NCBI RefSeq assembly: GCF_000010405.1
Contig: NC_009465.1
Coordinates: forward strand, 682,001 to 746,000
From: Candidatus Vesicomyosocius okutanii
Lineage (GTDB): Bacteria > Pseudomonadota > Gammaproteobacteria > PS1 > Pseudothioglobaceae
Direction: 5' to 3'
Length of the DNA: 64,000 nucleotides
Position numbers and translations under genes: made by a program
Notes under the pieces: generated by a model
What the model saw: the letters and a program-made list of their open reading frames with translations, nothing else
What the model was told of the DNA's origin: nothing
Databases searched by the model: none
Shown: in pieces, positions 2,950-28,242 of the stretch
Numbering within the stretch: position 1 is the first letter of the stretch
Layout of the letters: each line of letters opens with the position of its first letter

Positions 2950-4545
2950 TTAAGACTTCTTGTCTAAATACTGAAAAATAATCATTAGTACGGAACCAAA
3001 TAGAACCATTATAAGGGCTGGTATAGCGGCTCGTTCAAATAAACCTTCAGCACTTAATTCATACACTTGAATTGCCAATGTATCCCAGCCAAATGGACGC
3101 AATAAATAGGTAGCTGGCAATTCTTTCATTACATCAACCGCAACTAACAAACCACCTGCCAAAATACCTGGAGTCATCATGGGTAAGTATATTTGCCAAA
3201 TAAGTCGTAAACGTGACACACCAAGTAAACGTGCACTTTGAGTGAACATAGGCTTAATTTGTTCAGCACTGGCTTTAATTGAATTATAGCCAATTGCCAT
3301 AAAACGAGATATATAAGAAAATAATAATAAAGCAATGGAACCAAAAATAATCTGATTAATACTTTGTCCACCAAAATATATACTGACTGCTGACACTTGG
3401 TTAATACCATATAATAGTCCAACTGCCATAATTGAACCTGGTAATGCATAGCCTAATGTTGCTATATTAATCACACTTTTAAGCCAAGAACTATTCTTTT
3501 TACAATGATTGGGCAATGCTAATATAGTAGCAATACTAACCGTTATTAAAGTAGCTGATACAGTTAGAACTAAAGTTGAGATGATCAAATCAGTATACCT
3601 AACATTCAACTCCTTACTTGAGTATGCCCAACCCCAAATTATCAATTGTAACATAGGCATGGCAAAAGCAAGCATAAACACGCTAAATATAAAAATACTG
3701 ATTAACCAACCCATAATACCAAAAGCACGATAAGGCTTTTTATTAACCACATCGCTTGAATAATATTTTGCTTGTCCACGTGCTTTTTTTTCAAAATAAA
3801 TCAAAAAAAATGCCACTAACACTAATAATGATGCCAATTGTGCTGCCACTTCAATAGAACGAAAATCACCCCAAGCAGAATAAATTGCCGTAGTAAACGT
3901 ATCAAAATTAAACAAACTAACCACACCAAAATCAGCCAATATTTCCATTAGTGTTACTAATAATCCAGCTGCTGCTGCTGGGCGTGCTAGAGGCAAAGAT
4001 ATCTTAAAAAACGTACGCAAAGGACTAGTACCTAACAAACGACCAGCTTCGATTATATTAACCTTTTGACGTTTAAATGAGGCTCGTGCCATCATGTATA
4101 CATAAGGATAAAATACCAATACAAAAGTCAAAATAATTGCCCAAGATCCGGCACGGATATCAAACCCTGATAAACCTAGTACTTCACGCATCCAAACTTG
4201 TACATAACCAGAATAGTCAAATACACCTAAATATACAAAAGCTAATACATATGCAGGAACAGCAAAAGGCAAAAATAACGCCCATTCTAACCACTGTCTA
4301 CCAGGGAATTCAACCATTACCACTAAATATGCTAAAATTGTACCTAAAAAAGTAACACCCACCCCTACACCAATAAGTAAAACTACAGTAGCACTGATTA
4401 AATTTGGTAATAAAATAGTAGAAAAATGCGCCCACAGTTCACGTTCTGGAAAGAACCACGACACAGCTACAACAAAAATTGGCATAGCTACCAATAATGC
4501 TAAAACACTGATCCAAACTTTTGATTTAAGGCAATTTTTTTCCAA
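2950..4545 (-). CDS. fbpB: Ferric-iron ABC transporter permease, fused two-domain form
   Basis: Inner-membrane channel of an FbpABC/AfuABC-type Fe(III) importer. Its 531 residues hold two homologous permease halves, each with about six membrane segments. Each half has an EAA loop that docks the ATPase: EAGRLLGTSPLRTFFKISLP near residue 160 and QSARLLGVSRLRLIWQIYLP in the second half. It is the last gene of fbpC-fbpA-fbpB, about 80 bp after fbpA. Iron is inferred from the partner FbpA and the Fur-like site upstream of fbpC; thiamine- and sulfate-type permeases share this fold. Confidence 0.92.
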   Translation of the reverse strand: MEKNCLKSKVWISVLALLVAMPIFVVAVSWFFPERELWAHFSTILLPNLISATVVLLIGVGVGVTFLGTILAYLVVMVEFPGRQWLEWALFLPFAVPAYVLAFVYLGVFDYSGYVQVWMREVLGLSGFDIRAGSWAIILTFVLVFYPYVYMMARASFKRQKVNIIEAGRLLGTSPLRTFFKISLPLARPAAAAGLLVTLMEILADFGVVSLFNFDTFTTAIYSAWGDFRSIEVAAQLASLLVLVAFFLIYFEKKARGQAKYYSSDVVNKKPYRAFGIMGWLISIFIFSVFMLAFAMPMLQLIIWGWAYSSKELNVRYTDLIISTLVLTVSATLITVSIATILALPNHCKKNSSWLKSVINIATLGYALPGSIMAVGLLYGINQVSAVSIYFGGQSINQIIFGSIALLLFSYISRFMAIGYNSIKASAEQIKPMFTQSARLLGVSRLRLIWQIYLPMMTPGILAGGLLVAVDVMKELPATYLLRPFGWDTLAIQVYELSAEGLFERAAIPALIMVLFGSVLMIIFQYLDKKS

Positions 4546-4626
4546 AATACTCTTTTTAATTTTTAAAAACTATTTTAAAAACTCAAGACTGTTAAAGTCT
4601 GGGTTTCTTGCTACTAAAATAGAAAC

Positions 4627-5646
4627 TTATCGATAGCCTTTTGTTTGCATGAGCTTCACTGCATCAGCTTGTAATATACCTGTTTGTTCTAAATTCATTT
4701 TATCTTGCTTGAATGATCCCCAACTCGATACCACTTCATCTGAAATAACATTCTGATTAGCTGGATATTCTTTATTAAGTGATGCATAAATAGCTTGTGC
4801 TTTAGCATTTGATAACCATTCTAATAATTTAATAGCACCCTTGACATTAGTAGCATATTTTGTAACACCAGCACCTGATATATTTACATGCACACCTGTG
4901 GTATCTTGATTTGCCCAAAATAACTTCAATGGTACATTAGGATTTTTAGTAATTAAACGAGCAAAATAATAAGTATTTACCAAACCAATATCACATTGAC
5001 CTGAAATAATTGCATTCATAATATGAGAATCTTTAGCATTAGGTGTAGCTGCCAAATTATTCACCCAACCACTAATAATATCGCTCGCTTTATTTATTCC
5101 ATGATGATAAATCATCGATGCCACTAATGACTTAGTATAAATTTTTTTACTAGTTCTTAAACACAATCTACCTGCCCATTTTGTATCTGCTAAATTCTCA
5201 TAAGTAGATAGATCGACTGGATTAACACGCTCAGTGCTATAAACAATGGTTCTTGCACGCACTGATAGTCCTGTCCACAAGCCTTTAGAATCTCTTAAAT
5301 GGCTTGGAATGTTGTTTTCTAACGTTTGTGTTTGTACTGCTTGAAATAAATCTTGCGTAGCAGCATACCAAAGATTACCTGCATCTACAGTCATAAACAT
5401 ATCAGCATTAGTGTTTTTACCTTCTAATTTCAAACGCTCAATTAATGCACCACCTTTGCCTGTTAAGTACGTAACTTGAATGCCTGTATCTCTTGTAAAA
5501 GATTCAAATAAAGGTTTAATTAAATGTTCTTTTCTAGAGCTGTATACAGTGACTAAATCTTCACTTCTTGCTCGTGCTATACCAACACTAGTTACTACCA
5601 GTAACAATACTATCAACGCTGGTACTATCCGTATTTTTATATTCAT
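4627..5646 (-). CDS. fbpA: Ferric-iron ABC transporter periplasmic binding protein
   Basis: Periplasmic Fe(III)-binding protein of the FbpA/AfuA family. I start it at the ATG at 5646 (MNIKIRIVPALIV) because an AAGGAG site lies just upstream; a longer frame to 5697 has no such site. The N-terminal 25 residues form a signal peptide ending near ARA. The mature protein begins EDLVTVYSSRKEH, typical of the family, and the paired tyrosines of the iron site are present in GLVNTYYFARL. It lies 55 bp downstream of fbpC. The family also contains thiamine and phosphonate binders, but the double Tyr favours iron. Confidence 0.92.
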   Translation of the reverse strand: MNIKIRIVPALIVLLLVVTSVGIARARSEDLVTVYSSRKEHLIKPLFESFTRDTGIQVTYLTGKGGALIERLKLEGKNTNADMFMTVDAGNLWYAATQDLFQAVQTQTLENNIPSHLRDSKGLWTGLSVRARTIVYSTERVNPVDLSTYENLADTKWAGRLCLRTSKKIYTKSLVASMIYHHGINKASDIISGWVNNLAATPNAKDSHIMNAIISGQCDIGLVNTYYFARLITKNPNVPLKLFWANQDTTGVHVNISGAGVTKYATNVKGAIKLLEWLSNAKAQAIYASLNKEYPANQNVISDEVVSSWGSFKQDKMNLEQTGILQADAVKLMQTKGYR

Positions 5647-5701
5647 CCTTATTTTCTCCTTATAAAAAAACTGACTAAGGTTATATAATTGATGCATATT
5701 A

Positions 5702-6352
5702 TCAATTAATAGTCAATTTCTTATTTTTAATTACTCCTACTTTATCAGCAAAAATAGTCGCCTCATATTTGTCATGTGTTACTAGAATTGAAGTGATGTT
5801 AGTTTTCTTTAAAATGTCTCTGACTTGTAATACTAATTGTTCTTGATGGTTCTTATCTAGACTAGAAAATGGCTCATCCAATAATAATAATTTTGGTGAG
5901 GGGGCTAATGCACGAGCTAAGGCAACACGCTGTTGCTCTCCACCTGAAAGCTGGTGTGGATATTTTCTCTCAACACCTTTTAAACCAATCATCAAAAGCA
6001 ATTCTTCAACCTTAGTTTTCTGTTTGCTGTTTGATAAATTATAAATACCAAAAGAAATATTTTTTTTTACATTCATATGCGGAAATAACGCATAATCTTG
6101 AAACACCATTCCTATTTCTCTTAATTCTGGTGGTACATTATGTGTACCATTGTTAGATAATTGTTTACCATTTAAAATTACCTGACCACTTTGCGCCTCA
6201 TCAAGTCCAGAAATAAACCTAAGTACTGAACTTTTTCCACTACCACTATCACCCAATAAGGCAAAAATATCACCTGTAGCAAGACTTAAATCAAAATCAT
6301 TTAAAATTTGAGTGGCTTGATAGGAAATTGATAAATGGTTAACTAATAACAT
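5702..6352 (-). CDS. fbpC: Ferric-iron ABC transporter ATPase, short form
   Basis: ATPase that powers FbpB. All core motifs are present: Walker A GDSGSGKSS near residue 35, Q-loop in MVFQDYALFPHMN, signature LSGGEQQRVALARAL, Walker B LLLLDEPFSSLD and the H-loop in VTHDKYEA. At 216 residues it ends shortly after the H-loop, whereas FbpC proteins are usually near 350 because of a C-terminal beta-barrel regulatory domain. The nucleotide-binding core is complete, so it could still hydrolyse ATP. It is first in the fbpCAB operon, with a Fur-like palindrome just upstream. Confidence 0.9.
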   Translation of the reverse strand: MLLVNHLSISYQATQILNDFDLSLATGDIFALLGDSGSGKSSVLRFISGLDEAQSGQVILNGKQLSNNGTHNVPPELREIGMVFQDYALFPHMNVKKNISFGIYNLSNSKQKTKVEELLLMIGLKGVERKYPHQLSGGEQQRVALARALAPSPKLLLLDEPFSSLDKNHQEQLVLQVRDILKKTNITSILVTHDKYEATIFADKVGVIKNKKLTIN

Positions 6353-6365
6353 TTAATAATAAAAA

Positions 6366-6386
6366 TGATAATGATTCCTATCATTA
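6366..6386 (-). promoter_or_regulatory. Candidate Fur box upstream of fbpC
   Basis: The 21 bases TGATAATGATTCCTATCATTA contain the exact inverted repeat AATGAT-TCCT-ATCATT (6370-6385) and the GATAAT hexamers typical of Fur operators. It lies about 15 bp upstream of the fbpC start. A second weaker dyad, ATGAT-AAT-ATCAT, follows at about 6401-6413. Together they suggest iron-responsive repression of fbpCAB by the Fur homologue encoded at 27835-28242. Only the sequence match is seen; binding is inferred. Confidence 0.7.
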
Positions 6387-6418
6387 TATAAGATATATTA
6401 ATGATAATATCATATTAA

Positions 6419-8113
6419 CTAAATTTCGCAAAAAGACCTTAATGGAATTCTTTTGTTATTATCAATATCAGTCATAACAGTATCAAAATCCTCTGGTTCT
6501 ACCACCAAAAATTGTCCCATCATTCCTGCGTCTTCATGTTCCAATATATGACAATGATACATATAAGGGTATTGAGTATCTGCGTAGTGATCAAATTTAG
6601 CAACTACTCTTACGGTTTCTTCTGGCATAAGTAATACGGTATCTTTCCAACCACGTTCATTTTCATTTGGCAGGGTTGGATCTGAACCATCTCCTTGTTC
6701 TCTATCAAGAATTTGAAATTGAATATCATGAATATGAAAAGGGTGAGTAGTATGTGCACCGTTGGTAATTCGCCAAATTTCAACATCACCTTTTTTAACC
6801 ACTTCATTAATCACATTCATGTCCATTTGAACACCATTAATTAAATGTAACATATGCTCACCTTCAAGTACAATACCATTAATAACTTTAAACATGGAAG
6901 TGAAAACTCGTCTATTGATTTTAAAACCACTCATAACTGTTAATCCAAAATTCCTAGTTTTAATAGCATCTGACTCTTTTAATCGGACTATTTTAGTGAG
7001 TTTATTAGGAATTTTTCTAACAACATTAGTACTAGTTGATTTATTAACGTAAATACTCATAACATCAAAATTAATTTTATCTAACGTATCTACCGAATCC
7101 GATAAACGACCTGTACCACCTACTTTAAATGGTCCACCAAACTGATGACCATTAAGTTTTTGTTTATCATAATATTCAGCACTAAAACTCTTGAACCGTA
7201 AAATTGTATTCTTGCTATTATTCAAATCAAGCAAAATTTCTACTCGTTCTGCAGGACCTAGTAATACCCTAGTAAGTGAAACCGGTTTTTCTAAAAAACC
7301 ACCGTCACTAGCAATTTGATAAAACTGAATATCTCCTTCAAAACCTAAATTATAAATTCTTGCATTAGAGCCATTGAGTATTCTTAGTCTAATCACTTGA
7401 GCAGGTACATTTAAAATAGGCACAGGTTTACCATTTACCAAAATTGTATAACCCTTCATGCCGCCTGATTTATCAAAATCACCTTTATTTAAATAAAGCA
7501 ATTGGGCTTTTTCATCAAATCGCCTATCTTGAATCACCACAGGTAAATCATCAACGCCATAAGTTTTAGGAATATCTAATAATCTAGAAGTTTCATCATC
7601 AATTAAGAAAAAACCTGCCATACCTTTATACACTTGTTCACCTGTATAACCCTCAAGATGAGGGTGATACCATTGAGTTGAAGCTAATTGATTAATACGC
7701 CAACTAGGTTTCCATGTTTTGTTAGGTGGAATAATTTGATACGGACCACCATCTTCTTTAGCCGGCAAATGCAATCCATGAAAATGTACAGTGGTATTAA
7801 CTGATAAATAATTGGTTATTTCAAAACCCACATTATCCATATTATCCACCCGAATAGTTGGACCTAAAATACTATCACCATAACCTAATACGCATGTTAA
7901 CTTACCTTTAAAAATTTCTATTGTATTGTGATTGATTGAAAATTTAAATATTCTTTTACCGTTAACAATTGTAGGTTCAATAAGTGGTGGAACAATAAAA
8001 GATCTATCTGCATAATCAGGATAAATAAATTTATCAGAACGCTTATCACTACAACCCACTACTAGTATACTACTAGATAAAATAGATGTTTTAATAAAAT
8101 CTCTACGTTTCAT
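6419..8113 (-). CDS. Multicopper oxidase, Tat-exported (CueO/CotA-like)
   Basis: Periplasmic copper enzyme that oxidises a substrate, possibly Fe(II) or Cu(I), and reduces O2 to water. The chosen start at 8113 (MKRRDFIKTSILSSSILVVGC) follows a GAGAA site and gives a twin-arginine signal with an overlapping lipobox-like VVGC. All four copper motifs are present: VHFHG, WYHPHLEG, HPFHIH and HCHILEHEDAGM, the last with an axial-ligand Met. At 564 residues it is in the usual range. It sits in one strand block with imelysin-like proteins, a di-haem cytochrome and fbpCAB, which suggests a ferroxidase or iron-uptake role. Copper detoxification and a laccase role remain possible. Confidence 0.88.
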   Translation of the reverse strand: MKRRDFIKTSILSSSILVVGCSDKRSDKFIYPDYADRSFIVPPLIEPTIVNGKRIFKFSINHNTIEIFKGKLTCVLGYGDSILGPTIRVDNMDNVGFEITNYLSVNTTVHFHGLHLPAKEDGGPYQIIPPNKTWKPSWRINQLASTQWYHPHLEGYTGEQVYKGMAGFFLIDDETSRLLDIPKTYGVDDLPVVIQDRRFDEKAQLLYLNKGDFDKSGGMKGYTILVNGKPVPILNVPAQVIRLRILNGSNARIYNLGFEGDIQFYQIASDGGFLEKPVSLTRVLLGPAERVEILLDLNNSKNTILRFKSFSAEYYDKQKLNGHQFGGPFKVGGTGRLSDSVDTLDKINFDVMSIYVNKSTSTNVVRKIPNKLTKIVRLKESDAIKTRNFGLTVMSGFKINRRVFTSMFKVINGIVLEGEHMLHLINGVQMDMNVINEVVKKGDVEIWRITNGAHTTHPFHIHDIQFQILDREQGDGSDPTLPNENERGWKDTVLLMPEETVRVVAKFDHYADTQYPYMYHCHILEHEDAGMMGQFLVVEPEDFDTVMTDIDNNKRIPLRSFCEI

Positions 8114-8173
8114 AACTATTCTCTTTTTAGTCTTTAGAACCAAAATAATCTCATACAATATGACATAAAATTC

Positions 8174-9082
8174 TTACTTTTTTATTTGTTTATAGGTAAC
8201 AATAAAAGGGAAAAATAACAAATCTTTCAAACTTTGAAAGTTTTTCATCTGCGTCTTTTCTAAACCAAATTTAATATTAGTTACGTTTTTTGAAAGAATT
8301 AATGTGCCAAATAAATAGTCCCAAACTGACAAAAAACCACCAAAATTAGTATTCATATAGTTCTTAGAATGATGAATTTGATGTTGTAGAGGAGAGATTA
8401 AAAATAGCTCAACCACATTTCCAAAACCTAACTTGATATGAGAATGTCTAAGATTAGACCCTAATAATGAAAATATAAAAACAAACAAATTAACACCTAA
8501 GATATCATAAATACTCACCAAACTACCAAATAAAAATACAAAAACACCTGTCACAAAACCGATACTTAGAGAATAGCGAAAACCAAACAACAAGAATTCA
8601 ATAGGATGTACTCGATAAAACGTCAGTGGATTTAAAACTTTAGCACTATGGTGTACTTTATGAAACACCCATAACCATGGTACAAAGTGTAATAAACGAT
8701 GTAACCAATAACGGGTAAAATCATTTAAAATAAACAAAATAAGTGTAAATAGCACCATTACTTGTGTATAAGATAAAGTTTCTATTCTCACAAAACCATA
8801 TTGATTTAACAAGACAATATTAACAAACAATGCAACTTCTTTAGTACTTATTATCACTGGTAATATAATCATAACTCTAAAGAATACAGAGAAAATAAAA
8901 TAACTATAATCCAATAAACTAGAAGGATGCAGCCAAAGTTTTTTTGATAAAACAATACGTTGCTGTTTTGGATGAAACTTTAAAAAAACAAATGTAATCA
9001 TCAACGAACTTAGTAAAAATAACCAATAAATTCGCCTATGAGGATCCATTAAGTATTCAAACGGATTAATCTCCATCAGCAT
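8174..9082 (-). CDS. Sterol desaturase / fatty acid hydroxylase family membrane protein
   Basis: Integral membrane di-iron protein of the fatty acid hydroxylase superfamily. The three histidine boxes that bind the two irons are clear: HRLLH near residue 128, HKVHH near 141 and HQIHH near 233. Several hydrophobic segments flank them. The start overlaps the end of the upstream imelysin gene by 17 bp (ATG at 9082, or 9076 two codons later), so the two are probably co-translated. Members act on sterols, carotenoids, alkylglycerols or lipids, and the substrate here cannot be told. Its place in an iron cluster is unusual. Confidence 0.85.
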   Translation of the reverse strand: MLMEINPFEYLMDPHRRIYWLFLLSSLMITFVFLKFHPKQQRIVLSKKLWLHPSSLLDYSYFIFSVFFRVMIILPVIISTKEVALFVNIVLLNQYGFVRIETLSYTQVMVLFTLILFILNDFTRYWLHRLLHFVPWLWVFHKVHHSAKVLNPLTFYRVHPIEFLLFGFRYSLSIGFVTGVFVFLFGSLVSIYDILGVNLFVFIFSLLGSNLRHSHIKLGFGNVVELFLISPLQHQIHHSKNYMNTNFGGFLSVWDYLFGTLILSKNVTNIKFGLEKTQMKNFQSLKDLLFFPFIVTYKQIKK

Positions 9083-10031
9083 CTAACACTTTAGAGACAA
9101 ACCCCAATTTATCCATTAAAGAAATGTAATAGGCTTTCATAAGCCTATTAGTTGATTGATATAAACGTTTACCCTTGTCGTTAATAAAATCAAACTCGGA
9201 CATATTATTCGCATTAGCAATTGAATCATTTAATGCACTAATAGCCTGGTCGATCTCTTTTCTTGCTTTAAATTGACGTGATATATCACCAAGATCTTGA
9301 TAATCTGGTGAATTAATAATCTGAGCTTGTGTTTCAAGAATAGCTTTAATAGCATTGACACTATTGCCACTAGTTGCATACTCTGCTCTATAATTGTTCG
9401 GTTTATTCTTAAATTTTTTACTCAAACCAGCTACATCACCAACACGCCACTCTTTAAGTTTATAGGTACCAGCAATTAAAGTATTTAACAGAATTGCACT
9501 AGCATATTGCTCATTTTCAAGGAATTTTGACTGATACATTTTATAACCATCTAAAATTTCTGACAAATAGCTTTTGATTGACTTGGCAATTATTAACGCC
9601 ATATTTTTAACCCTCTGATGAGACAAATCTTTTGTAAAAAGAACATATTCCAAAGCATTAATAGTTTTGTGTGAATACTTATACATAGCATTAAATAGCT
9701 CATCATTACTATTAATAATTAAATCTAATTGAGGTTTAATCTCCTCATTATTTCCATGAAATATATCAATGTATCTTGGTGTATCTAAATAATCCTCATT
9801 TAAATCACCCAAAAAATAAGTAGTTTCAACTTTTTTCCAACTTGAAACTAAGTTACCGAATTGCATTCTAATTCTTGTAGAATTAGCTTGATTAATATTA
9901 TCAATTAATAAATCAACACTTTTAATGGCTAATATAATATTGACAATAATAACTTGGTTAAAGAACTTTTCACCAACTGCATTTACAACAATCGATATAA
10001 AAAAAATAATAACAACCAAGTATCTCATCAA
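9066..10031 (-). CDS. Imelysin-like (peptidase M75 / IrpA-type) protein, second copy
   Basis: Predicted exported helical protein of 321 residues with a hydrophobic N-terminus (LVVIIFFISIVVNAVG). Similarity to imelysin-like, iron-regulated proteins is seen in WKKVETTYFLGD near the N-terminus and YSHKTINALEYVLF near residue 130, a degenerate form of the GxHxxE region. It is shorter than, and diverged from, the copy at 11383-12693, with the di-haem gene between them. The family is linked to iron uptake although its biochemistry is unsettled; despite the old name, proteolysis is doubtful. It lies 6 bp after the di-haem gene. Confidence 0.78.
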   Translation of the reverse strand: MMRYLVVIIFFISIVVNAVGEKFFNQVIIVNIILAIKSVDLLIDNINQANSTRIRMQFGNLVSSWKKVETTYFLGDLNEDYLDTPRYIDIFHGNNEEIKPQLDLIINSNDELFNAMYKYSHKTINALEYVLFTKDLSHQRVKNMALIIAKSIKSYLSEILDGYKMYQSKFLENEQYASAILLNTLIAGTYKLKEWRVGDVAGLSKKFKNKPNNYRAEYATSGNSVNAIKAILETQAQIINSPDYQDLGDISRQFKARKEIDQAISALNDSIANANNMSEFDFINDKGKRLYQSTNRLMKAYYISLMDKLGFVSKVLDADGD

Positions 10032-10037
10032 CTTACC

Positions 10038-11405
10038 CTATATCTCATTCAAAAATTGCAATATTTTACCTCTACTACTAACAGGTAAATTCATAAACAA
10101 AGTTTTAGACCTCTCAGCCTCACCACCATGCCAAATAATTGCCTGTTCGAGGTTGCGTGCACGACCATCATGCAAAAAATTCTTATTATCTTTAAGTATT
10201 AAAGAAACCCTGCCCAATCTCCATAATGGAGGGGTACGCCATTCATTACCTAAAGCATCAAATTCTGAACGATCATCTGCTAAATCCTTTCCCATATCAT
10301 GTAATAGAAAATCACTATATGGATATATAGTAATATTAGGCAATGAATAACTTGGAACATGACATTTTGAACATCCTATTTCAGAGAATAGTCTTTGTCC
10401 TTGATATTGGCTAATAATAGATTTTGGCAGTTTCAAATGTGTCAAATAATAACTAATAGCATTTAATCTTTGTGCTGTTAGCTCATGTTTTTCTCCATCT
10501 TTTGAGGAATTAATACATTCAACTTGTATTAATGTGCACGACTGATGTTCGTAAATAGGATTAGTTAAACCCATATCATTAACAGCAGCATTGGCTGATT
10601 GATACTTTACTGTTGGTGCAGAAGCTTTCCAAGCATAACGACCAATCTCAATTTTCTTAGTCTGCTCTGACCAAACCCTATTAGCTTTACCAGAAATACC
10701 ATCATGATTAGCATCATTAATATCTTCATTAGCTAGAATCTGTTCATCAGTAATTTGTTCCAATAAACCCAAACCCACAAGTGCTGGTGCAATTCTAGCA
10801 GAAATAATTGTGTTAGGAAGTAAATCACCATAACCTAATTTCTCTAATTTAACTATTGGTTGTTGCAAAATGATGATAGTATTATCGGAATAATGAATAT
10901 TTTTAGTTGAATAATGTACCAAGGACTTGGCTTCAAAAGGTACACCAGGAACTCCATTAATGCTAATTTGAACACCATAATTTGGCTCAGGAATAGAACC
11001 AAATTTAGCTATCATTCCTTGATGCTCATCAGTATCATTTAAAGGTATGGATAAGCGTATTACGTGTGACTTATCAACGATATTATTTACTTCAAATACT
11101 TTTCCACGACCATTTTTTACATGACAATTAACACAAGTATTAGCACTAAATAATGGACCTAATCCATCACGTGCTGTTGTTGAACTAGGAGCTTCTACCC
11201 AAGGAATACGAAAAAAACTCTTTCCCAAAATAAACTTATCCAATTTATCATTACTTAAATTAGGCTGAACTTGCGTAAAAGACTGACTTAACTCGTAGGT
11301 TGATAAATTACTAAAATCATTAGCGAAAACCCTTTCCATTAGACTAATAACAAGAATTAATATGATTAAAGCCGCTGAATATTTATAGTTTAATTTCCTC
11401 AACAT
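10038..11405 (-). CDS. Di-haem cytochrome, thiol-oxidoreductase-like (DUF1111 / MauG-CcpA-related)
   Basis: Exported c-type cytochrome. The N-terminal 28 residues are a signal peptide ending near VFA. Two CxxCH haem-attachment motifs are visible: CVNCH at residues 91-95 and CSKCH about 250 residues later. The remainder matches the di-haem oxidoreductase family, for example GLGPLFSANTC before the first haem and TPPLWRLGR and FLHDGRARNLEQAIIWHGGEA near the C-terminus. It overlaps the upstream imelysin gene by 23 bp, so the two are tightly coupled. In other proteobacteria this family recurs between two imelysin-like genes. The electron partner is unknown; haem attachment would need the Ccm system (ccmAB at 29848-31106). 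Confidence 0.87.
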   Translation of the reverse strand: MLRKLNYKYSAALIILILVISLMERVFANDFSNLSTYELSQSFTQVQPNLSNDKLDKFILGKSFFRIPWVEAPSSTTARDGLGPLFSANTCVNCHVKNGRGKVFEVNNIVDKSHVIRLSIPLNDTDEHQGMIAKFGSIPEPNYGVQISINGVPGVPFEAKSLVHYSTKNIHYSDNTIIILQQPIVKLEKLGYGDLLPNTIISARIAPALVGLGLLEQITDEQILANEDINDANHDGISGKANRVWSEQTKKIEIGRYAWKASAPTVKYQSANAAVNDMGLTNPIYEHQSCTLIQVECINSSKDGEKHELTAQRLNAISYYLTHLKLPKSIISQYQGQRLFSEIGCSKCHVPSYSLPNITIYPYSDFLLHDMGKDLADDRSEFDALGNEWRTPPLWRLGRVSLILKDNKNFLHDGRARNLEQAIIWHGGEAERSKTLFMNLPVSSRGKILQFLNEI

Positions 11406-12693
11406 CCATTATATTTCCAACTGTTAAATCAATACCATTTGATTTTGCTACATAAATCATTTGATCACCAATGGCTCTTAACTCATTTTTAAGTATTTTG
11501 ATTTGCCTAGCTTGAGAGTCATTCGGATGAATTTGATAATCAAAATGACGGCTTACTTGTGCCAATGTATTCATTTGATTAATTTTAGTATTTACTGATG
11601 CAATTAAACCCATTAACTTAGTTTTATCTTTCATAGCATCAATAAGTGCTACACCATAGTCAAAACCATTATAAGTACCGAACAACAAATTCTTAAAACC
11701 TTGAAAATTTTGCGTTATATCACGATGTGTATTATCAGAAAAACAACTATGCTCATCTTCTTCAGATGGCGTTAGTACTGCCATTGCAATACGCTCATTA
11801 GCAAGTTCAGATTTAATAAAAATACCTAACCCAGAAAAAATTTGCTTAAGTGCCACCTTTACATTAATATTCTTAGTCACATCAGAATTTTGACCCAATA
11901 ATGCTGCTTTATAATTAGTACTATCGCCATCTGCCCAAGCCGAAGTTATTGACTCTAAATCAGAAATAATTAGACTCGCTGCGGCATTTAAATATTGTTT
12001 ACGACGATCAGCATTTACATTAATCGTATAATCAGCAAGTGGTCTCTGACCTGCTAACAATGCACCATGAGTTACACTATCTTTTATAAAATTAGTATAA
12101 TCCTGATCTTGACCCCATAATAAAAACTCAATAACGTGATAACCAGTTGTAACATTAGCATTGCCACCATTTTCATTAAGCGCTACTAACACATCAGAAG
12201 TAATTATACTTACATCAATCACTAAAGGATTTTCCCCACCTGGATTAAATATATCTGGGGTATCAATAATATTACCTGATGTTTTTCTACCCTTAGCATT
12301 GGTTGTATAATCAATCATATTTTCATCTAATGGCCAAGCATTTAATCGCCCTTCTGGTGCACCATAAGATGTATGCCAACCTTCCTCTGCATCAATAGGC
12401 CCATTAGACAATCTAAACGCTTCAGTTTGACTATAAGATTCACGAGCGTTTAGCCATGCCGCTTTAGCATTTCCCATTGTTTCTATTGTAGGATTAATTG
12501 TAAAATCTTTCAATTTTATTCCTAATTTTTTAGCATCATTCAAGGCATCCGTGTAGTTTATAGTTGCAATATTTGCATAAGTGATTAACAACGGATTAAT
12601 CTCATTTCCACTCAAGAATACACTTGCAGCAGAAATTACTATTACCACTGTCAAAACAAACGAAATCATCAATTTTTTTGTACTGTCATGCAT
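11383..12693 (-). CDS. Imelysin family protein, IrpA-like
   Basis: Exported iron-regulated-type protein of 436 residues and the first gene of the metal block. Hydrophobic residues 9-28 form a signal anchor. The family hallmark GxHxxE is intact in GYHVIEFLLWGQD, and the N-terminal region with WLNARESYSQTEAFRLSNGPID matches IrpA-like imelysins. An AAGGAG ribosome site lies at about 12698-12703. No strong Fur box is evident upstream. Together with the downstream di-haem and second imelysin genes it probably forms a periplasmic iron-handling unit. The reaction it performs is not known for the family. Confidence 0.86.
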   Translation of the reverse strand: MHDSTKKLMISFVLTVVIVISAASVFLSGNEINPLLITYANIATINYTDALNDAKKLGIKLKDFTINPTIETMGNAKAAWLNARESYSQTEAFRLSNGPIDAEEGWHTSYGAPEGRLNAWPLDENMIDYTTNAKGRKTSGNIIDTPDIFNPGGENPLVIDVSIITSDVLVALNENGGNANVTTGYHVIEFLLWGQDQDYTNFIKDSVTHGALLAGQRPLADYTINVNADRRKQYLNAAASLIISDLESITSAWADGDSTNYKAALLGQNSDVTKNINVKVALKQIFSGLGIFIKSELANERIAMAVLTPSEEDEHSCFSDNTHRDITQNFQGFKNLLFGTYNGFDYGVALIDAMKDKTKLMGLIASVNTKINQMNTLAQVSRHFDYQIHPNDSQARQIKILKNELRAIGDQMIYVAKSNGIDLTVGNIMDVEEIKL

Positions 12694-13501
12694 ATTTCTC
12701 CTTACACTTATAAAAATTCTATAGTTGCTATTATTAATACTAAAAAGCGATTTATAAACTATTAATTGATTTTTTATCCGTTCATTTTATTATTTTCAAA
12801 AAGATAATTACATCTTATAACTAATCAAAAGCTATAAGCTAAACTCGACAACCATTCAACCTAAATTAAACCATAAACGATAAGGATTAGAACTACCATA
12901 ACCCTTTATATCATTTTTAAAATAATTCACACCAATACTAATAATATATCAACTGCTGTATCTGTAATAATATTCATATACTTAATACTAGTTATCCTAT
13001 ATATTGTTAATTAGAAATATCTACAGAACTACTTCTGCAGATTTGATACCTGCCTGTATTAATCTTAATTCACCTTCTTTTATTTTATTAAAAATAGTTA
13101 ATTTCTTCAAGTTAGTAAATGATATCAGTTATTATTTGCATTTATAATAAAATATAAAAATTATGTAATATATCATTTTCTTAGCTATTGAGAAAAAAAT
13201 AAAACCTCTTAAACACTCAGCTATACCATTAACTAAATTAATTTTCATAGATCTAGCATTTAAATTTGATTTTATGATTGATATTATTAACAGCACATTT
13301 ATTACAAAATCAAATTTATCTTAAAATTATACAAACACTCTTAAATCATAATATTATATAAGTTCTACTTTGATTTACTTATATGCTACACAGAAAAGAA
13401 AGTATGAATAAATTACTATCACCCCTAGATATATCTTAATAATTGCATATTATAAAAATATAACATAAAATAAAATAGTCATCATTCATCTTTTTACCAC
13501 T
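12694..13501. other. Long spacer with decayed coding remnants (minus strand)
   Basis: No intact gene in about 800 bp. On the minus strand two fragments stand out. One at about 13021-13125 reads TNLKKLTIFNKIKEGELRL and continues IQAGIKSAEVVL to a stop. The other, about 12850-12950, reads GVNYFKNDIKGYGSSNPYRL then WFNLG, a stop and MVVEFSL, with an outer-membrane-protein flavour. I cannot name either. A near-perfect 10-bp inverted repeat (ATCTACAGAA/TTCTGCAGAT, 13019-13042) lies at the end of the first fragment. Confidence 0.45.
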
Positions 13502-14641
13502 TTGGATTTAAACAAACGCACTCAAGCCAGTCAAAAAGTTACACTTGTAGGTATCACTGTTGATTTTTTATTGGCGATATTGAAAGTTATTACAGGTTCT
13601 ATTGGAAATTCTGGCGCTTTAATTGCAGATGGTGCCCACTCATTTTCTGACTTATTATCTGATGGATTAGTTCTATATGCTACTAAACATTCAACCCTTG
13701 ATGCCGACGAAGAGCACCCTTATGGGCATAATCGATTTGAAACAGTTGCTATTCTAGGTCTTGCAATTATTTTAACCATTGTTGGTTTAGGTATTATTTT
13801 AGATGCAATGATTAAATTATCTAACCCTATTACACTTTCACACAGTACGTTACTTTTAAATATTACTATCTTATCAATTTTTTCTAAAGAAGCTTTATAC
13901 TGGTATACTCTAAAAGTAGCCAATGATTATAAATCTGACTTATTAAAAGCCAATGCTTGGCATCATCGTTCAGATGCATTATCTTCAATTGTAGTACTAA
14001 TCGGCATTCTTGGCAGTTTAAATGATTATCCATATTTAGATAGTATTGCAGCTATCGTTGTGGGTGTCATGATTATTTATATTGCTTGGAAATTAGGTCT
14101 AAATGCAACTAAAGAACTAGTAGACACCTCTATTGATGCACAACAAGTAGCAGAATTAAAGCACGCACTAGGACAAATTAATGATGTTAATAGTGTTCAT
14201 TCTCTACGTACTCGCAAAATTGGACACACTATTTCTTGTGATGTGCACATACAAGTTGATCCTTTTTTAAGTGTTAGCGAGGGGCATATTATCAGTATTA
14301 GCGTTGAACGTGTAGCCAAAAAATGCTTAAAAAACTTAAACGATGTGACAGTTCATATTGATGTAGAAGATGATGAAACTAATTCTCCTTACAAAGCATT
14401 ACCAGAACGTTCAGAAGCGTTAGGAATTCTAACTAAAGCCCTATTTAATAATAAATATAGCAGTGAAATTAGTCGTATTCAATTACATTATTTAGAAAGT
14501 AAAATTCATGTAGATTTTTACTTACCACTTAAATGTCTCCAAACTGACAATACTGCTGATAAAATACTAACTAAGTTACAAGAGACTGTTAACAATCTTG
14601 ATAATTTTGGAAAGATTAAGGTTTATTTTAGCCAAAATTAA
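13502..14641 (+). CDS. Cation diffusion facilitator (CDF) family metal efflux protein
   Basis: Inner-membrane proton-coupled exporter of divalent metals (Zn, Fe, Co, Cd or Mn). It has six predicted membrane helices followed by a cytoplasmic ferredoxin-like domain. The metal-site residues are present: HSFSDLLSD on helix 2 (DGAHSFSD) and HHRSDALSS on helix 5. At 379 residues it is longer than the usual 300, with an extra C-terminal tail of about 80 residues. The start is a TTG without a clear ribosome site; homologues begin at a similar point, so I keep it. The metal cannot be assigned, but iron or zinc would suit the nearby genes. Confidence 0.88.
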   Translation: MDLNKRTQASQKVTLVGITVDFLLAILKVITGSIGNSGALIADGAHSFSDLLSDGLVLYATKHSTLDADEEHPYGHNRFETVAILGLAIILTIVGLGIILDAMIKLSNPITLSHSTLLLNITILSIFSKEALYWYTLKVANDYKSDLLKANAWHHRSDALSSIVVLIGILGSLNDYPYLDSIAAIVVGVMIIYIAWKLGLNATKELVDTSIDAQQVAELKHALGQINDVNSVHSLRTRKIGHTISCDVHIQVDPFLSVSEGHIISISVERVAKKCLKNLNDVTVHIDVEDDETNSPYKALPERSEALGILTKALFNNKYSSEISRIQLHYLESKIHVDFYLPLKCLQTDNTADKILTKLQETVNNLDNFGKIKVYFSQN

Positions 14642-27844: not shown

Positions 27845-28242
27845 CCCTTACAAAAACCGTATAAATACAAGCAATGATCGGTCAGTTGGTAACCATATTT
27901 ATTAGCAATATCATGCTGATGTTGCTCAATCACCTCATCAGAAAATTCGTCAATTTTACCACACTTAATGCATACTAGATGATCATGATGATCTACATTT
28001 GATAGCTCAAACACACTTTGACCGTTATCAAAGTTAAGTTTATTTACCATGCCTGCCTCTTCGAACTGGGTAAGTACTCTATAGATTGTCGCTACACCCA
28101 CTTCTGCACCTTGTATCATCAAAGTACGATAAATATCCTCGGCGCTCATATGATGATTATCACTAGTTTCTAAAATTTCCAAAATTTTTAACCTTGGTAG
28201 TGTAACTTTAAGCCCCGCACTTTTTAAATCCTGAGCATCCAT
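27835..28242 (-). CDS. fur: Ferric uptake regulator family protein
   Basis: 135-residue metal-dependent repressor. The N-terminus DLKSAGLKVTLPRLKILEIL and the recognition region VGVATIYRVLTQFEEAGM are typical of true Fur. The metal site has HHDHLVCIKCGKIDEF, and a second cysteine motif, FCKGC, closes the C-terminus. The usual fur-bamE divergent pair is kept (bamE starts at 28308). Coupling to a zinc-type permease leaves Zur as an alternative, but similarity favours Fur, and a Fur-like box precedes fbpC. Confidence 0.88.
   Translation of the reverse strand: MDAQDLKSAGLKVTLPRLKILEILETSDNHHMSAEDIYRTLMIQGAEVGVATIYRVLTQFEEAGMVNKLNFDNGQSVFELSNVDHHDHLVCIKCGKIDEFSDEVIEQHQHDIANKYGYQLTDHCLYLYGFCKGCH

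Follow-up and report, generated by a model that had tools for sequence, protein, structure and literature searches.

The genome of Candidatus Vesicomyosocius okutanii, a symbiont of vesicomyid clams, is very small (1.02 Mb, according to a passage in PMC3202245), and the question raised here is what eight of its genes, which code for two imelysins, a di-haem oxidoreductase (DHOR), a membrane hydroxylase (FAH), a multicopper oxidase (MCO) and the ATP-binding cassette (ABC) importer FbpCAB, do together. The window, i.e., the whole stretch of 64,000 nucleotides that was analysed, covers positions 682,001 to 746,000 of contig NC_009465.1, and the listing of its open reading frames (ORFs) places the eight genes in one block on the minus strand, at 2950-12693. 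We consider it likely that this block is one iron-acquisition system, built of exchangeable sub-modules that would feed a single inner-membrane importer. From the upstream end, the genes are:

11383..12693, minus strand: ImelA, imelysin of ICMP type (PF09375, 4.7e-56, 190.9 bits; GYHVIE at residues 184-189)
10038..11405, minus strand: DHOR, di-haem oxidoreductase (PF06537, 1.9e-70; CxxCH at 91 and 345)
9066..10031, minus strand: ImelB, the second imelysin, of IPPA type and lacking the histidine of GxHxxE (PF09375, 1.2e-14)
8174..9082, minus strand: FAH, membrane di-iron hydroxylase of the fatty acid hydroxylase superfamily (PF04116, 2.8e-25, above cut-off)
6419..8113, minus strand: MCO, CueO-like multicopper oxidase with a Tat-like start (PF07732/PF07731; longest ORF from 8158, TTG)
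5702..6352, minus strand: FbpC, ABC ATPase of 216 aa (PF00005, 3.8e-35)
4627..5646, minus strand: FbpA, FutA/IdiA-type protein, predicted to bind Fe(III) (7li0 match, YY pair; longest ORF from 5697, 356 aa)
2950..4545, minus strand: FbpB, fused two-domain permease (PF00528 in two stretches)

The preliminary description of this DNA had reported eight same-strand genes with overlaps of 23 and 17 bp, and the ORF listing agrees: ImelA overlaps DHOR by 23 bp (11383-11405) and ImelB overlaps FAH by 17 bp (9066-9082). Pfam likewise concurs with the family name proposed for each of the eight genes. When the MCO start is set at the RRDFIK methionine (8113) and that of FbpA at an internal methionine (5646), the remaining gaps are 6 bp (DHOR-ImelB), 60 bp (FAH-MCO), 66 bp (MCO-FbpC), 55 bp (FbpC-FbpA) and, the largest, 81 bp (FbpA-FbpB). 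No terminator-like pattern was found on the gene strand between the genes of the block, those listed being within genes or upstream of it. The same gene order is present in three sister genomes (92-97% protein identity) and in two more (80-88%), and the ratio of non-synonymous to synonymous substitution rates (dN/dS) of the block genes was 0.08-0.28 in five comparisons. The eight-gene block is not due to chance.

The membrane hydroxylase had been singled out as possibly an uncharacterised part of the iron block, and a gene-neighbourhood survey bears out its membership. A total of 382 FAH relatives were confirmed in named genomes, and the counts given here out of 80 FAH loci rest on the best 80 of these 382. 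An imelysin or DUF4856 gene lies within 6 kb of FAH in 77 of the 80 loci, a count that rules out the hydroxylase as a stray gene. In the three remaining loci (L096, L110 and L130) FAH is located at a contig edge, and L110 keeps, on the other side, FbpA, FbpB and a MauG/MbnH-like di-haem gene (CCP). DHOR is present in 60 loci and CCP in 58; ImelA, DHOR and ImelB are found together in 59, and with CCP too in 53. With ORFs counted from their first start, the gap from ImelB to FAH is at most 20 bp in 62/62 close same-strand pairs. In Campylobacterota, and in several Gammaproteobacteria too, five genes in the order ImelA-DHOR-ImelB-FAH-(MauG-like di-haem) make up a cassette, and the organisms with FAH loci include Arcobacter, Poseidonibacter, Malaciobacter, Sulfurimonas, Sulfurovum and Sulfurospirillum, as well as Advenella, Taylorella, Bisgaardia, Moraxella and Bathymodiolus symbionts. 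The nearest named relatives, Candidatus Vesicomyosocius genomes, carry FAH proteins of 94-95% identity. The membership of FAH in the iron cassette is well supported.

Closer to the window, FAH was matched at 1e-10 in 29 of the 83 genomes of the order. In genera g1, g8 and g9 the gene, open or broken, has ImelB and DHOR as neighbours in 16 genomes, and it lies directly upstream of FbpA in all 10 high-scoring loci of genus g5 and in L087; three low-scoring loci of the order (L029-L031) have none of ImelB, DHOR and FbpA by FAH. When the FAH profile was run over 184 genomes of the class, six matches of 272-505 bits and four of 157-206 bits were obtained, and then none above 88 bits. The six top matches (the window's own, G039, L149, L154, L159 and L160) are all located in imelysin/DHOR/DUF4856 loci. 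The next four adjoin a glycosyltransferase, a carboxypeptidase plus an acyltransferase, a VWA protein or unlabelled genes, without modelled iron genes. As a paralogue control, 14 of the first 16 matches below the score gap were used (G177:C11, G249 and weaker matches were left out), and no imelysin, DHOR, DUF4856 or FbpA gene was found in these 14 loci (71-88 bits). In this control set, L174 has a weak 19-bit match to the FeoB model, and the FAH ORFs of L172 and L177 were not relabelled by the locus model.

FAH also has other companions. In the five enlarged g5 loci the order is FbpC, a 465-aa gene, FAH, FbpA and FbpB (FbpB is in pieces in L051), and the 465-aa gene is DUF4856 by Pfam in the two cases tested. 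In Pseudoalteromonas, Colwellia and Shewanella, DUF4856, imelysin and TonB receptor genes precede FAH. DUF4856 (L050:7974-9371; L121-L140) is a partner of FAH in g5 and Alteromonadales, and the word DUF4856 was not found in the open PMC papers searched. A sequence relationship of DUF4856 to imelysin was not borne out, since a comparison by hhalign gave signal-peptide matches only, and a fold search with its model (predicted local distance difference test, pLDDT, 79) gave only helical-bundle matches, namely vinculin/catenin bundles with Z up to 8.8, no imelysin being listed. Among the TonB receptors near FAH, those of L124, L131 and L160 resemble siderophore/FecA receptors and that of L149 resembles haem/transferrin receptors, so that no single substrate is indicated. 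DUF1513 follows the second imelysin in 19 DHOR loci (15 genomes; in L144 by Pfam); it was found in 9 of the 18 class DHOR loci and in none of the 80 FAH loci. Contig JADGDK010000019 (Campylobacterales) carries two different FAH cassettes (L105 and L115), one with ImelA-DHOR and an extra 445-aa gene, the other ImelB-FAH-CCP-FbpABC. In two Sulfurimonas loci a gene of about 440 aa that resembles an outer-membrane beta-barrel stands between FAH and CCP (L117:10895-12220 and L102:10885-12219), its Pfam match being below cut-off.

The preliminary description had further tied the imelysin/DHOR module to FbpABC, and this connection holds, both by recurrent physical linkage and by genome-wide co-occurrence. 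In the order, FbpA is present in 17/17 DHOR genomes, versus 37/49 good genomes overall (p 0.002). In the class sample, the 14 ImelA+DHOR loci, defined as class loci with at least 90 bits to the ImelA model (L141 at 37 bits, L143 at 23 bits and a further four that carry no ImelA label were left out), all belong to FbpA genomes, versus 95 of 184 genomes (p 6e-5). Furthermore, 17 of the 20 class genomes with a strong DHOR have FbpA (p 0.001; 9 of 29 genomes, G102, G139, G151, G196, G201, G251, G252, G256 and G264, were dropped), and in the phylum sample 63 of 69 DHOR genomes have it, versus 128 of 249 (p 2.5e-16; 5 of 74 genomes, G378, G396, G468, G287 and G336, were dropped). By family, FbpA occurs in every sampled DHOR genome for 23 of the 29 phylum DHOR families and in none for 6. 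Among the cassette genomes searched, 19 of 20 have an FbpA relative. The DHOR neighbourhoods comprised 18 of the class plus two of the own genus (20 class DHOR genomes), and 10 of the phylum set were enlarged. FbpA lies within 10 kb of DHOR in G146, G292 and G375, and the order in G146 is ImelA-DHOR-imelysin-DUF1513-FbpA-FbpB-ABC. Of 50 Campylobacterota loci (one of them, L093, titled only 'bacterium'), 8 carry FbpA, 7 of them independent, when about 0.3 would be expected at one FbpA per 2.5 Mb. The missing permease of imelysin/DHOR operons is most likely FbpABC.

The chromosomal site itself, between a divergent CDF exporter and argJ, is used for several iron modules. A divergent gene for a CDF-family metal exporter stands in the window at 13502-14641, and such a gene flanks the iron site in many members of the family. 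The site holds FeoB alone in G051 and G052; FeoB plus FbpCAB in G061 and G072 and also, as far as the contigs reach, in G062 and G076; FbpCAB alone in G067, G029 and G035; and the cassette plus FbpCAB in the own genus, G053 and G056. With the DUF4856 form argJ follows and no CDF gene was seen; exceptions are G066, where neither CDF nor argJ was seen around FeoB in the stretch covered, and G058 and G007, both without a CDF gene in view. FeoB was not found in 12/12 genomes of the own genus. In genus g8, FeoB is missing from the five genomes with the cassette and present in the other five that are at least 90% complete (p 0.008); four of the latter are without FbpA, and G050 has an FbpA fragment at a contig end. 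Two less complete g8 genomes are without the cassette, and of these only G049 has FeoB, G060 being without it.

Gene decay in the clam symbionts then separates the parts of the block. FbpCAB is the core, being retained throughout the 12 genomes of the own genus. Of these, six have both ImelB and FAH open and three (G036, G038 and G040) have both broken; in G044, FAH was not found and ImelB is a fragment. ImelA, DHOR and MCO are open in these four genomes, whereas G035 and G041 retain FbpCAB and pieces of MCO but have no imelysin, DHOR or FAH gene. This pattern delimits three sub-modules, ImelB-FAH, ImelA-DHOR-MCO and FbpCAB, and L105, from outside the genus, fits the split, since its ImelB-FAH-CCP-FbpABC cassette is without ImelA-DHOR. 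The visible breaks in ImelB and FAH stand at different places in G036, G038 and G040, where assembly errors or older shared lesions are possible, and low tree support along the genus backbone (44-59) does not allow the independent losses to be counted.

The copper oxidase is the local part of the block. The preliminary description had included it in the route and would have counted a lack of co-occurrence of hydroxylase and oxidase with imelysin triplets in other genomes as a refutation; the hydroxylase does co-occur with imelysins, and the oxidase was found in 3 of the 80 loci, all from Vesicomyosocius or Ruthturnera. MCO as a general cassette member is thereby ruled out. It stands where other carriers have CCP and has locally taken the place of the MauG-like gene. 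Its start, MKRRDFIK, is Tat-like, and it carries the copper motifs HFH, HPH, HIH and HCH. The match to NF008205 (CueO) reached 369.6 bits, under the cut-off of 525, and CueO chains are among its best solved relatives. CueO has a Met-rich insert, and the stretch of MCO at this position contains few Met. The gene in the same slot of L044 scored 159.9 bits versus the MbnH family di-heme enzyme model (TIGR04039, cut-off 363) and 97 bits versus MauG (cut-off 444).

The individual proteins were then compared with solved and modelled relatives. In FAH, ten histidines (128, 132, 141, 144, 145, 159, 213, 234, 237 and 238) that form the di-iron histidine boxes are invariant in 58 sequences. With its predicted structure (pLDDT 91.7), VIA-align gave the Scs7p hydroxylase as the best solved fold (Z 5.5, root-mean-square deviation 5.0 over 179 residues), and the next entry outside Scs7p had Z 3.1, values of such size being middling. 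Foldseek alone gave nothing significant with this model, and the FAH profile had no match among PDB sequences. The fold is probably that of the fatty acid hydroxylase superfamily. The only NCBIfam match of FAH was to the ornithine lipid hydroxylase OlsE, at 44.4 bits, and did not reach the cut-off of 475; far below that value and with its iron-gene context, FAH is, judged by sequence, a subfamily of its own. With the membrane helices set by hand from the predicted model, the mean net loop charge over the 58 sequences was +3.6, +4.1 and +6.9 on the side of the histidine boxes and -0.8, -0.4 and +0.3 on the opposite side. Because the loops on the histidine-box side are positively charged, the active site should face the cytoplasm, and with this predicted topology FAH is probably not itself a periplasmic enzyme. 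The GxHxxE motif is present in 57 of 59 ImelA and in 0 of 67 ImelB proteins of the named loci, and the ImelB profile matches 3pf0, a solved imelysin-like protein of the IPPA type (1.1e-08). DHOR has two CxxCH haem motifs. FbpA matches 7li0, an Fe(3+) substrate-binding protein, at 5.6e-100 with the tyrosine pair aligned (YY at 243-244 of the 356-aa ORF); its closest kin are Fe(III) binding proteins of the FutA/IdiA type, and binding is predicted from this alignment.

Fur-box-like sites (at least 13/19) were found before 49 of 69 cassette heads and 35 of 140 other ORFs (p 2e-10). Against composition-matched shuffles, which kept base composition only, such sites stood out at 30 of the 69 heads and 14 of the 140 controls; the controls came from 150 random unlabelled ORFs, 140 of which had enough upstream sequence. 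A Fur-family gene on the minus strand of the window, at 27859-28218, is the sole PF01475 match in the genome.

These data suggest the following working, whose chemical steps we infer throughout. FbpA, FbpB and FbpC, of the FutA/IdiA type, would move Fe(III) across the inner membrane. ImelA and DHOR would act as the known periplasmic imelysin/di-haem pair, and ImelB and FAH, kept or lost jointly, as a second pair. The oxidase slot is filled by a MauG/MbnH-like di-haem enzyme in most carriers and by a CueO-like multicopper oxidase in the clam-symbiont genus. The imelysins may hold periplasmic iron, and the di-haem and copper enzymes may oxidise this iron, or an iron-holding protein or ligand, using O2 or H2O2, so that Fe(III) would be passed to FbpA and then imported. 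FAH, a putative O2-using inner-membrane enzyme whose active site is predicted to face the cytoplasm, would hydroxylate a lipid or hydrophobic ligand needed by ImelB. A bolder version holds that the hydroxylated lipid or ligand made by FAH acts jointly with ImelB to carry iron onward to FbpA once it has left the imelysin/di-haem stage, that the whole is an aerobic alternative in the slot of FeoB, and that FbpABC is the missing permease of imelysin/DHOR operons generally; taken as a whole, this version is unlikely.

Several observations weigh against a single system. The co-occurrence p-values given above ignore kinship, and the phylum sample repeats a few families; moreover, 9 of the 63 phylum genomes have only a weak match to FbpA (about 1e-25), and the FbpA frame of G205 has two stops. 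No FbpA was seen in 42 of the 50 Campylobacterota loci, some of which end at contig ends, and adjacency to FbpABC is optional. The exclusion between cassette and FeoB is not general, because G069 and G071 (g9) carry both. The Alteromonadales FAH occurs with DUF4856, imelysin and TonB receptor genes and without DHOR or CCP, and MCO occurs in only 3 of the 80 loci. The Fur-box controls were random ORFs, many of them no operon heads, and the comparison favours the cassette because they were not chosen as such. Upstream of the window ImelA, no Fur-box beyond chance was found: the best site within about 840 bp scored 14/19, and scores of 14-15 were also reached by 30 shuffles.

Other explanations have to be weighed against one iron system. 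It is possible, if rather improbable, that FAH is an OlsE-like lipid-remodelling enzyme, co-induced with iron uptake, which aids the membrane under iron limitation and takes no step in the iron route. OlsE is indeed its sole NCBIfam match, the lipid hydroxylase Scs7p (Z 5.5) is the best solved fold, and the predicted cytoplasm-facing active site would suit such a role; but the OlsE score is 44 versus a cut-off of 475, the close FAH relatives examined adjoin imelysin, DUF4856 or FbpA genes, and FAH is lost with ImelB and not with its other neighbour. We doubt, too, that the di-haem enzymes, and perhaps FAH, act on proteins and not on iron, maturing the imelysins by oxidation so that the modified imelysins would be the metal carriers. 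MauG matures an amine dehydrogenase and MbnH its partner MbnP, and the slot gene of L044 is closest to MbnH (160 bits) and also matches MauG (97 bits), with the imelysin and di-haem genes tightly linked (DHOR 60/80, CCP 58/80). Both scores are, however, under the cut-offs (363 and 444), and a multicopper oxidase takes the same slot in the symbiont genus, which fits the oxidation of small substrates or metal better than it fits protein modification.

The two remaining explanations would take the block apart. That MCO is a copper-defence enzyme of the CueO kind, beside the iron operon by chance, would account for CueO being its closest named family, for the CueO chains among its solved relatives and for its presence in 3/80 cassettes only. 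We regard this as very unlikely, as MCO stands in place of the di-haem gene, persists beside ImelA-DHOR in genomes where ImelB-FAH has decayed (G036, G038, G040 and G044), is in pieces where ImelA-DHOR is gone (G035 and G041), and is below the CueO cut-off with few Met at the position of the insert. There is a similarly slim chance that the imelysin cassette and FbpCAB are two separate iron operons, neighbours only as the site near argJ collects iron genes: the CDF-argJ site does hold several alternative iron modules in the family, and 42/50 Campylobacterota cassettes were not seen beside FbpABC. Against this, the linkage recurs in Campylobacterota and in two further phylum genomes with other gene orders, FAH and DUF4856 stand between FbpC and FbpA in g5, and DHOR and FbpA co-occur genome-wide.

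The single iron system, our preferred reading, resembles several known ones and departs from each. According to passages of PMC3143127, iron and Fur are tied to the imelysin/DUF1111 operons PA4370-PA4373 (Pseudomonas) and VC1264-1266 (Vibrio), which are without EfeU and whose biochemistry was little understood in 2011; 'hydroxylase' has 0 occurrences in the main text of that paper. The window has the same order of an ICMP imelysin, a di-haem DHOR/DUF1111 protein and an IPPA imelysin. The fourth gene of the Pseudomonas operon, PA4373, we take to be DUF1513; in its place the window has FAH, and then the copper oxidase (a MauG-like enzyme in relatives). The Fe(II) importers EfeUOB/EfeUOM likewise combine an imelysin-domain protein and a haem peroxidase in an iron operon, but EfeU/Ftr1 was not found by Pfam among the eight window genes (the rest of the genome was not searched), and the importer is of the FbpA/FutA ABC type. 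What separates the block from FbpABC/FutABC Fe(III) importers, to which the window FbpA is close, is its genetic link to a membrane hydroxylase and to a periplasmic imelysin-redox module. With the fatty acid hydroxylase superfamily (Scs7p, OlsE), FAH has the histidine boxes and probably the fold in common, its subfamily being set apart by the iron-gene context. Among the open PMC papers searched, none mentions imelysin along with either sterol desaturase or fatty acid hydroxylase. Both the imelysin/DHOR core and FbpABC have been described before, and apparently the FAH-bearing form, its spread, the exclusion of DUF1513 and the tie to FbpA are not described in that literature. To our knowledge, no permease has been named for imelysin operons since 2011, and the locus points to FbpABC as this permease, a co-occurrence that is testable. 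FAH adds an undescribed membrane di-iron oxygenase partner, present in two phyla, and the paired decay in the clam symbionts marks ImelB and FAH as the genes to delete together.

As to origin, the sequence comparisons suggest that the cassette was transferred between lineages, because gene-to-gene distances correlate in 53 full cassettes (r 0.66-0.87, to be expected in part from any common descent) and, in a FastTree tree read without support values, FAH of the Thioglobus type falls among Campylobacterota. Upstream of ImelA, the 0.8-kb spacer at 12694-13501 contains remnants of a porin-like gene and, weakly, of a tyrosine integrase gene, both of which are intact near there in relatives:

12862..12933, minus strand: porin-like gene remnant, with weaker pieces within 12743-12842 (tblastn with the L037 porin-like protein, 6.6e-06)
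13305..13433, plus strand: possible tyrosine integrase gene remnant (tblastn with the L039 integrase, 9.8e-05)

An intact porin-like gene precedes ImelA in relatives, and an intact tyrosine integrase gene is located in one relative at about the equivalent of 13305-13433. The spacer thus looks like a gene graveyard and gives a hint of a once-mobile cassette. In relative G054, a ferritin-family gene (L045:7581-8048) is located upstream of the cassette.

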